Assembly: GCF_013294115.1 (NCBI RefSeq)
Contig: NZ_JABSNP010000003.1
Location: 248,001 to 312,000, forward strand
Length of the DNA: 64,000 nucleotides
Reading direction: 5' to 3'
Source of the DNA: Hymenobacter caeli
Lineage (GTDB): Bacteria; Bacteroidota; Bacteroidia; Cytophagales; Hymenobacteraceae
Positions within the stretch are counted from its first letter, which is position 1; each line of letters begins with the position of its first letter. Shown here one piece after another: positions 30,501-53,902 of this stretch. A program made the position numbers and the translations under genes. The notes beneath the pieces were generated by a model. That model searched no databases and was not told the origin of the DNA. It saw only the letters and a list, made by a program, of their open reading frames with translations.

Positions 30501-30522
30501 TCGTTAGGTTTTAGTACCTTTG
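30492..30522 (+). promoter_or_regulatory. Promoter of tRNA-Trp - secE - nusG
   Basis: TTTG (30492-30495), 19 bp, TACCTTTG (30515-30522), continuing CACTCCC, the same downstream word as at the rplC and rpsH promoters. Confidence 0.87.
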
Positions 30523-30562
30523 CACTCCCATTAGTGAAATATTGCTACGGGGAGGATTTGAT

Positions 30563-43052: not shown

Positions 43053-43084
43053 TTTGCTATTGCGAGGAAAAAAACTTACCTTTG
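43053..43084 (+). promoter_or_regulatory. Promoter of the str operon
   Basis: TTTG (43053-43056), 20 bp, TACCTTTG (43077-43084), followed by CAAGCC. The leader of about 45 nt contains a small hairpin GGAGC/GCTCC (43100-43114) without a T-tract. Confidence 0.8.
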
Positions 43085-43131
43085 CAAGCCAAAAAATTGG
43101 GAGCAAACGGCTCCTGCTAATCACTCGCTAA

Positions 43132-46427: not shown

Positions 46428-46733
46428 ATGAACCAGAAAATTCGCATCAAACTCAAGTCTTACGACCACAACCTCGTAGACAAATCGGCTGAGAAAATCG
46501 TGAAAGCCGTAAAGGCCACCGGTGCCATCGTTAGCGGTCCAATTCCGTTGCCTACGCAAAAGGAGAAGTTCACCGTACTGCGCTCGCCCCACGTAAATAA
46601 GAAGAGCCGGGAGCAATTCCAGCTCTGCACCTACAAGCGTCTCGTGGACATCTTTTCGACTTCGTCGAAGACCGTGGATGCCCTAATGAAGCTGGAACTG
46701 CCTAGCGGCGTTGATGTAGAAATCAAAGTCTGA
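46428..46733 (+). CDS. rpsJ: 30S ribosomal protein S10
   Basis: 101 residues; [40 protein letters not shown] and [12 protein letters not shown]. Also the NusE antitermination factor in bacteria. It follows fusA by 49 bp, and a terminator plus a new promoter separate it from rplC, so here it belongs to the str transcript rather than to the S10 operon. Confidence 0.97.
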
Positions 46734-46757
46734 GGACCGGACTCATTGTGTTAAACC

Positions 46758-46794
46758 AAAAGCCCCGTTGTGATTCGTCGCGGCGGGGCTTTTT
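46758..46794 (+). terminator. Terminator after rpsJ
   Basis: A 10-bp stem AAAAGCCCCG/CGGGGCTTTT (46758-46767, 46784-46793) and five T's, 25 bp after the rpsJ stop. Confidence 0.9.
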
Positions 46795-46879
46795 GCTGGG
46801 ATTAACGTTCAATATCGTATCAACTGAAGGCGACCACTAAAAGCTAAGTGCCTCATTTGGAAATTATTTGTACACCAGA

Positions 46880-46911
46880 TTGGGAAAATACCGACTTTAA
46901 TTCTATCTTTG
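46880..46911 (+). promoter_or_regulatory. Promoter of the rplC (S10) operon
   Basis: TTG (46880-46882), 21 bp, TATCTTTG (46904-46911), continuing CACTCCC. The 239-bp rpsJ-rplC spacer therefore contains a terminator, this promoter and a leader hairpin. Confidence 0.82.
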
Positions 46912-46923
46912 CACTCCCTTAGC

Positions 46924-46951
46924 GAAAACGGCACTCGGCCGTTTTCTTTTT
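46924..46951 (+). promoter_or_regulatory. Terminator-like leader hairpin (candidate attenuator) before rplC
   Basis: Perfect 9-bp stem GAAAACGGC/GCCGTTTTC (46924-46932, 46938-46946), 5-nt loop ACTCG, then TTTTT. It begins about ten bases after the predicted transcription start and ends 21 bp before the rplC ATG. This is the form of an intrinsic terminator inside a leader. Confidence 0.65.
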
Positions 46952-46972
46952 GTGTACATAAATCTTCACAGA

Positions 46973-47593
46973 ATGCCTGGCATCATCGGTAAGAAAATCG
47001 GTATGACAAGCCTCTTCACTCCGGACGGGAAAAATATTCCCTGCACGCTCATCGAAGCGGGTCCGTGCGTAGTGACGCAGGTTAAGACTATCGCTAACGA
47101 CGGCTACACCGCCGTTCAGATTGGGTACGGCGAGAAAAAAGCGAAAAATACGACAAAGGCCCTGGCCGGTCACTTCGCTAAAGCCGGTACCACCCCCAAG
47201 AAAAAACTGGTTGAATTCCGTCTAGATGCGGAATCGACCTACGCTGCTGGCAATACCATTGATGCTTCGCTCTTCGCAGAAGGCGAATTCATTGATGTAG
47301 TTGGTACATCCAAAGGCAAAGGCTTTCAGGGCGTAGTGAAACGCTACAACTTTCAAGGTGTTGGTGGCCAGACCCACGGCCAGCACAACCGCCTGCGTCA
47401 CCCCGGTTCTATCGGGGCGTGCTCGTGGCCTTCGCGCGTATTCAAAGGGATGCGCATGGGTGGCCGCATGGGCAACGACCGCGTCAAAATTCAAAATCTG
47501 AAGGTGATGCGCGTGGTGGCCGACAAGAATCTGATTCTGGTGAGCGGTTCGATACCCGGTGCCAAGAATTCTTACGTGGTCCTGGAGAAATAA
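46973..47593 (+). CDS. rplC: 50S ribosomal protein L3
   Basis: 206 residues; [60 protein letters not shown] and [20 protein letters not shown]. Reaches the peptidyl-transferase centre. The ATG at 46973 is used; seven in-frame codons upstream overlap the leader hairpin. Confidence 0.97.
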
Positions 47594-53691: not shown

Positions 53692-53723
53692 TTTGCATAA
53701 GTCCTGCACTTCTACTACCTTTG
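53692..53723 (+). promoter_or_regulatory. Promoter P1 of the rpsH operon
   Basis: TTTG (53692-53695), 20 bp, TACCTTTG (53716-53723), then CACTCCG. An overlapping TAATTTTG (53688-53695) could serve as another -7 box. Confidence 0.75.
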
Positions 53724-53861
53724 CACTCCGAAAAGTTGGGGAAGGCCCCAAATCCTTTGGCAGGTTGCCGAAAGAAACCATTGGCTGCACCGTCGCCGGG
53801 CAAGCCAAGTAGTCTTAACCGAAATTTCGTTGGTCCTACCGGGAGCCCAGCGAAATTTTCT

Positions 53862-53869
53862 TATCTTTG
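53862..53869 (+). promoter_or_regulatory. Promoter box P2 of the rpsH operon
   Basis: TATCTTTG followed by CGCTCCG, 33 bp before the rpsH ATG. No TTG at the proper distance; the 12-bp hairpin 53822-53858 occupies that position. Confidence 0.6.
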
Positions 53870-53902
53870 CGCTCCGAAAAAAGCGGCCGCATCTAGCATT
53901 CA

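Follow-up and report, generated by a model that had tools for sequence, protein, structure and literature searches.

A 9-bp RNA hairpin lies in the leader of the rplC operon of Hymenobacter caeli, and its presence in all 116 leaders of the genus that were read, with compensatory changes in the stem, makes it very likely that it is a real, conserved and selected RNA element. In one branch of Hymenobacter, the one to which this genome belongs, the hairpin is followed directly by a run of T residues and so takes the form of an intrinsic terminator. The reading that we favor, to which we assign a probability of about 0.45, is that an old 5′ hairpin may have been turned into a terminator-only attenuator in this single branch. 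Coordinates are those of the window, the whole stretch of 64,000 nucleotides that was analysed, and all features described are on its forward (+) strand. How the largest ribosomal-protein operon is controlled has been studied extensively in E. coli, where the S10-operon leader precedes rpsJ. The literature that we searched, which included few subscription papers, describes no element such as this one and contains no account of the control of this operon in Bacteroidota.

The locus and its promoter

The gene order is rpsL-rpsG-fusA-rpsJ, followed by a gap of 239 bases and then by rplC-rplD and more ribosomal-protein genes. A family search confirmed the names of rpsL, fusA, rpsJ, rplC, and rplD; the remaining genes of the locus bear putative names, given by the likeness of their sequences. 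The first gene of the operon is rplC (L3; 46973–47593; NCBIfam TIGR03625, E 5e-84), and the second is rplD (L4; 47606–48244; NCBIfam TIGR03953, E 4.1e-66). A preliminary description of this DNA proposed a compact attenuator for an operon that had lost rpsJ. The loss did not occur: S10 is encoded at 46428–46733 (NCBIfam rpsJ_bact; TIGR01049, E 2.3e-44; NF001861, E 1.8e-47), ending one base before the interval 46734–46972 with which that description dealt, and rpsJ is the final gene of the rpsL-rpsG-fusA-rpsJ cluster. Also overlooked, inside that same interval, was an ordinary intrinsic terminator 3′ of rpsJ, AAAGCCCCG...CGGGGCTTTTT, at 46759–46794, with a terminator score d of 26.4. rpsJ is in a separate transcription unit from the rplC operon, with its own terminator between them. 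When the true rpsJ–rplC intergenic region was used, a strong terminator followed rpsJ in every one of the 19 Hymenobacter loci whose rpsJ end was located by script (59 were tried); a scan of the rpsJ region over a fixed 190-base stretch gave d > 0 in just 30 of 134 leaders.

The gap thus contains, from 5′ to 3′, the rpsJ terminator, a Bacteroidota promoter, the hairpin, five T residues, 21 bases, and the rplC ATG at 46973. The promoter, the 9-bp hairpin, the T-run, and the 21-base distance to rplC had all been placed correctly in the preliminary description. The promoter (46880–46911) is of the primary-sigma type of this phylum, with TTG at 46880–46882 (–33), 21 intervening bases, and a –7 box, TATCTTTG, at 46904–46911, which is of the type found in Flavobacterium psychrophilum. 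In that organism, the TAnnTTTG box extends from –12 to –5 (PMC9723704). By this spacing we infer that the rplC mRNA starts at 46916, a C, which would put the hairpin at +9 to +31 and the T-run at +32 to +36.

The box is followed by CACTCC (46912–46917), part of TAnnTTTGCAnTCC, a pattern that is also found 5′ of tRNA genes and other ribosomal-protein genes. TAnnTTTGCAnTCC matches 12 sites in this genome and its reversed form none, and the looser TAYYTTTGCnnYCC matches 44 sites and its reversed form 6. Because these promoters share the pattern, the RNAs predicted from them begin with CC. Within the window, sites of this type lie at 30515–30528, 43077–43090 (one mismatch), 46904–46917, 53716–53729, and 53862–53875 (one mismatch). 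The loci of this genome with either pattern (L101–L112 and L294–L318) have promoters preceding tRNA genes (Trp, Asn, Gln, and Arg), what we infer to be a probable rRNA leader, and several ribosomal-protein genes. These CC-start promoters may constitute a growth-regulated class. Two of them, 146 bases apart, lie in 53716–53902, between rpsN and rpsH, with a TTGGGG/CCCCAA hairpin within the first stretch; these may be tandem promoters, or there may be a small RNA.

Conservation of the hairpin

The hairpin, GAAAACGGC-ACTCG-GCCGTTTTC, extends from 46924 to 46946 and has nine perfect pairs, five of them G-C, and a loop of 5 nt. Downstream of the T-run (46947–46951), the remainder of the leader (46952–46972) is GTGT and then a variable A/T-rich stretch up to the start codon, which is 26 bases from the end of the hairpin. 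Bacteroidota do not use Shine-Dalgarno pairing. The hairpin with its T-run was an entry in a terminator scan that returned 23 sites in 12 kb, as against 16.7 ± 4.9 in shuffled sequence. Since this excess is small, the scan by itself is no proof, and conservation must decide. Folding of the RNA from 46916 to 46975 gave –17.9 kcal/mol (z –4.33), with one of 200 shuffles as good.

A search of the genus located the rplC leader region in 117 of 120 genomes. The set used here consists of 116 Hymenobacter leaders, 115 parsed by script and one (L154) by eye; outside it are G104, with two partial matches on two contigs, and the three genomes of the genus with no match. The hairpin is present in 116 of the 116. 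It starts at +9, that is, 8 bases after the predicted start, in all 115 parsed leaders, with a length of 23 nt in 114 of them. It is also kept in 8 of 8 leaders of the sister genus. Among 1098 pair cells from 114 Hymenobacter and 8 sister-genus genomes, a count that excludes L154 and L215, whose hairpin is 24 nt long, 1043 are Watson–Crick, 55 are G-U, and none is mismatched. The finding of 55 G-U cells and no A-C cell argues for selection on the sense RNA rather than on a DNA operator or an antisense RNA.

When the sequences were reduced to distinct rows, of which 40 of 41 were aligned (L215 was omitted), 100% of the cells were paired and three pairs changed on both sides. The covariation was 0.176, as compared with 0.096 ± 0.008 in shuffles that ignore the relatedness of the rows (0 of 500 as high) and 0.025–0.053 in slid controls. 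Five of the nine pairs are invariant and are thus uninformative about pairing. The GAAAA/TTTTC half of the hairpin is invariant, and loop positions 2–4 vary. Conservation of the stem in close relatives was the test that the preliminary description had set for its own refutation, and the stem withstands it, as the pairs are conserved and compensatory changes are found in 46924–46946. The leader thus has the feature by which ribosomal-protein leaders are generally recognized, a conserved and covarying RNA structure 5′ of a ribosomal-protein gene. A pattern for the same hairpin has nine matches across this genome, including the rplC leader, and the reversed control has three; by eye, in none of the other eight matches does the matched TTTG belong to a TAnnTTTG box.

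The T-run and the case for attenuation

In this genome, the stem passes directly into TTTTT, and the hairpin has a terminator score d of 10.4. The rplC leader therefore does contain an intrinsic-terminator form, as had been reported. That form is kept within one Hymenobacter branch and is absent elsewhere in the genus. TTTT is found immediately 3′ of the stem in 51 of the 116 genomes (50 by script and L154), and one further leader, L215, has a longer stem and a shifted T-run. The remaining 64 have no T-run after the stem, and their hairpin is kept and is equally well conserved. Since over half of the genus keeps the hairpin without the T-run, termination is not the general reason for its conservation. 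A T-run after the hairpin is found in 0 of the 8 sister-genus leaders, and in four other genera of the family (g8–g11; 76 genomes) none of the 27 leaders that were taken from the top matches listed has five consecutive T residues. With the named loci included in the leader set, so that some species are counted twice, the terminator score is above zero in 55 of 58 leaders with a T-run and in 1 of 76 others, which is L215. The three T-run leaders that score below zero are L150, L151, and L114, the last of which is within the branch of this genome.

A tree was made from rplC-rplD DNA of 51 Hymenobacter and 3 Pontibacter rows, with eight repeats skipped. Its 32 rows with a T-run are grouped in a single branch (support 100/99), and this branch is nested within rows that lack the run, for which one gain is the simplest history. 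Left off the tree for shortage of coding sequence are 76 loci (L143–L218), among them L150 and L151, in which the T-run accompanies a different stem core. The T-run in these two may be a second gain.

Within the T-run branch, the first four T columns show no change on the tree and the fifth shows two. In the same branch, the promoter spacer has a mean of 6.0 changes per column over 30 columns, with a single column unchanged, the third codon positions of rplC have a mean of 3.0 changes, with 19% unchanged, and the hairpin core changes as well. In the rows without a T-run, the corresponding tail columns have 3 to 7 changes, partly from small indels. A T-run that is frozen while its surroundings change makes termination plausible in this branch, and we regard it as the main support for the idea of an attenuator, in this branch only. 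Nevertheless, conservation in the T-run branch extends over everything from the –7 box through GTGT, so that the T-run need not have been retained for termination. It is close to an even question, with the balance slightly on the negative side, whether intrinsic termination would be part of the hairpin’s function here.

If the leader does attenuate, it would not do so by a choice between folds. The mean pair probability of the hairpin is 0.998, 0.997, and 0.986 when 57, 120, and 180 bases of the leader are folded, and no antiterminator fold appears in these foldings; an attenuator with a competing fold was rejected on this ground. With no competing fold visible, a protein, or else RNA polymerase itself, would have to act as the switch. 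Of the compact attenuator proposed in the preliminary description, then, the selected RNA hairpin and, in this branch, the frozen T-run hold up, and the lack of a T-run in 64 genomes counts against it. The T-run might have a second role. Among distinct leaders, pairing of this region with that of the start codon is predicted at a probability above 0.5 in 11 of the 26 that have a T-run, the leader of this genome being one of them, and in 4 of 47 others. In this genome, 46948–46954 can pair with 46968–46974, around the rplC start codon.

We suggest the following course of events. The rplC operon has its own promoter, and in its mRNA, predicted to start at 46916, the hairpin is the first structured element. 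In the T-run branch, part of the transcribing polymerases would stop at the U-run and let go of an RNA of about 33–38 nt, and the extent of read-through would depend on a factor, such as NusA, NusG, or a ribosomal protein, that binds the nascent hairpin or the polymerase. Outside the branch, the hairpin would have another role, such as shielding the 5′ end or, close to where translation begins, binding a regulatory protein, and this older role probably persists in this genome as well. If the proposal is right, an operon with some fourteen ribosomal-protein genes would be governed by an attenuator that is unusually compact. The step from a hairpin to a hairpin with a T-run in one branch offers a natural before-and-after comparison for the origin of an attenuator, and the 31-nt conserved element at the start of the operon is small enough for full mutational testing.

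The T-run might instead have no part in termination, and the hairpin might be a post-transcriptional structure of the mRNA 5′ end, either a guard against decay or the site of a protein that controls translation. This is a serious proposal, though we hold it to be somewhat short of an even chance. It accounts for the conservation of the hairpin with and without the T-run, it fits the nearness of the hairpin to the start codon, and a different hairpin occupies the RNA 5′ end in most relatives in which rplC has a promoter to itself. It does not explain why the T-run is frozen. The 5′ end in Hymenobacter is neither paired nor nearly so, as that of a 5′-terminal stabilizer would be; 8 bases precede the hairpin. 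For the decapping-like enzyme of B. subtilis, at least two unpaired 5′ bases suffice (PMC3997798), so that such an enzyme would find the Hymenobacter 5′ end open. The invariance of the GAAAA/TTTTC half also goes beyond the need of a mere guard. Termination under the control of L4, in the style of the E. coli S10 leader, is what the place of rplD as second gene of the operon might lead one to expect, and E. coli L4 is reported to act on the S10 leader partly through premature termination (PMC10931766). But a long leader with much structure is involved there, while here there are 57 bases and one strong hairpin, and the variation of loop positions 2–4 is a further point against L4. Searching one strand of a single 23S locus (L228) for ten short motifs taken from the hairpin gave no match, a result with which a structural mimic is still compatible. 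Nothing in the evidence points to L4, and we consider its involvement unlikely.

Two other explanations have little to recommend them. An inverted repeat that is nearly perfect and keeps a constant distance from the promoter, just 3′ of it, has the look of a palindromic DNA operator, yet every departure from Watson–Crick pairing is a G-U in the sense RNA, a bias not expected of an operator, and on this ground an operator is disfavored as highly improbable. The terminator-like form could also belong to the end of the upstream operon or be a chance repeat, which is still harder to credit: rpsJ has its own, stronger terminator 5′ of the rplC promoter, for which reason the former is rejected, and the hairpin is 3′ of that promoter and is conserved together with it.

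Mechanistically, a branch-specific attenuator of this kind is a variant of known attenuators and ribosomal-protein leaders. One of the nearest is the rimP-leader, a conserved leader terminator without an antiterminator, for which a protein or polymerase switch has been proposed (PMC2965389). Both have a short terminator hairpin before a translation-related operon, a conserved stem sequence, and, in the general form of the rimP-leader, no visible antiterminator. They differ in the operon and in the stem motif, and the Hymenobacter hairpin is widespread without its T-run and begins already at +9 of the predicted RNA. The S10 leader of E. coli likewise stands before an operon with rplC and rplD and has a possible terminator (PMC10931766), but here rpsJ is upstream, before its own terminator, and the leader is short and has a single strong hairpin. 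In being a lineage-limited structure 5′ of a ribosomal-protein gene, the element also resembles the Bacteroidota leaders described in PMC7247131, which are those of L13 and S4 in Bacteroidia and of S4, S15, S16, and L19 in Flavobacteria. The table there, of 20 ribosomal leaders found by comparative genomics, has no rplC leader from Bacteroidota, its sole rplC entry being an L4 candidate in Archaeoglobi. The 5′ stem-loops of ompA, papA, and aprE, going by titles referenced in PMC3997798, are similar in that the mRNA carries a hairpin at its 5′ end or close to it. They are close to the stems that begin at +1 in relatives, unlike the Hymenobacter stem, which begins at +9 and is half invariant in sequence. 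A search of the whole window with Rfam at the gathering threshold returned four tRNAs only, and a search of 46734–47060 to E 5 gave seven matches far below the threshold, none past 46825 and none on the hairpin.

Leaders of relatives and of other promoters

In Pontibacter and other Bacteroidota in which rplC has its own promoter, the predicted RNA also starts with CC and has a different hairpin, mostly formed from the first bases. The named loci compared are the best 80 of 566 matches, the nearest of them in rplC being Hymenobacter; 61 are outside Hymenobacter (L040–L100) and 26 of these, having the promoter pattern, were folded. By eye, the other 35 comprise 24 with the end of rpsJ within 125 bases, two with another first base in the box (L048 and L049), six with another inverted repeat (L051–L054, L089, and L094), two cut by a contig end, and L097. 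The six are Aquirufa and related Cytophagaceae, in which a CTTACAA...TTGTAAG repeat lies shortly 5′ of rplC; by eye, their leaders are without the usual –7 pattern.

Over the first 34 nt, the first paired base falls at +1 to +3 in nearly all of the named leaders (25 of 26) and in 17 of the 26 distinct ones from the four other genera of the family, but in 0 of 67 distinct leaders of Hymenobacter and 0 of 6 of the sister genus. The mean z over the first 34 bases is –1.92 for the named relatives and –1.91 for the other family genera, with fractions of 0.65 and 0.69, respectively, below –1.5. The mean is –0.27 for the 38 promoters of this type examined in H. caeli itself, rplC included, and six of them are below –1.5, the rplC leader among the six; these promoters come from loci obtained for 30 of the 44 TAYYTTTGCnnYCC matches. 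A control within the window gives a less clear contrast: four of five intergenic two-box promoters have z < –1.5, and apart from rplC these four precede tRNA genes and rpsL.

Some of the relatives share start sequences with Hymenobacter. A neighboring genus of the family has CCCUUAGCGAAAA in common at the RNA start and pairs its first bases instead, and the leaders L260, L262, and L263 of genus g11 share CCCTTAGCGAAAA with the branch of this genome but have its first bases paired. The Pontibacter locus L044 shares CCCTTAGCGAAA. Shared start sequences with different pairing look like a rewired stem. It is tempting to propose that, throughout Bacteroidota, rplC mRNAs made from their own promoter carry a 5′-end hairpin selected for its position and not its sequence, that Hymenobacter rewired this hairpin from +1 to +9, and that one branch then made of it an intrinsic terminator ending at about +36. 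We hold this broader history to be doubtful, and its phylum-wide part is a lead and not a result, since the named set contains near-duplicates and the 26 of 61 leaders were selected by pattern.

Other promoters of this genome also have structure near the RNA start. The rpsL leader (43089–43131) has a hairpin at +11 to +27 and no T-run. This hairpin recurs with a changed sequence, starting at about +9 to +12, in 27 of 28 rpsL leaders of Hymenobacter and the sister genus (from 29 genomes with a match), none of which has a T-run; hence, the presence of a hairpin close to the start does not by itself indicate termination. Among the 38 promoters, marked 5′ structure was not seen at the near rpsH promoter or in the leaders of genes that, by their sequences, we take to be like those of S6, L33, L31, L21, L19, and S21. 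It was seen, with z < –1.5, at L316, at one promoter of the probable rRNA leader (L111), at the far rpsH promoter, and at the tRNA-Trp promoter. The rplC leader ranks second among the 38. The first is the leader of a gene that we presume, again by its sequence, to be bL25-like (L314, from 27458 of contig C12 of this genome), which has a 12-bp hairpin beginning at the predicted first base and a z of –4.25.
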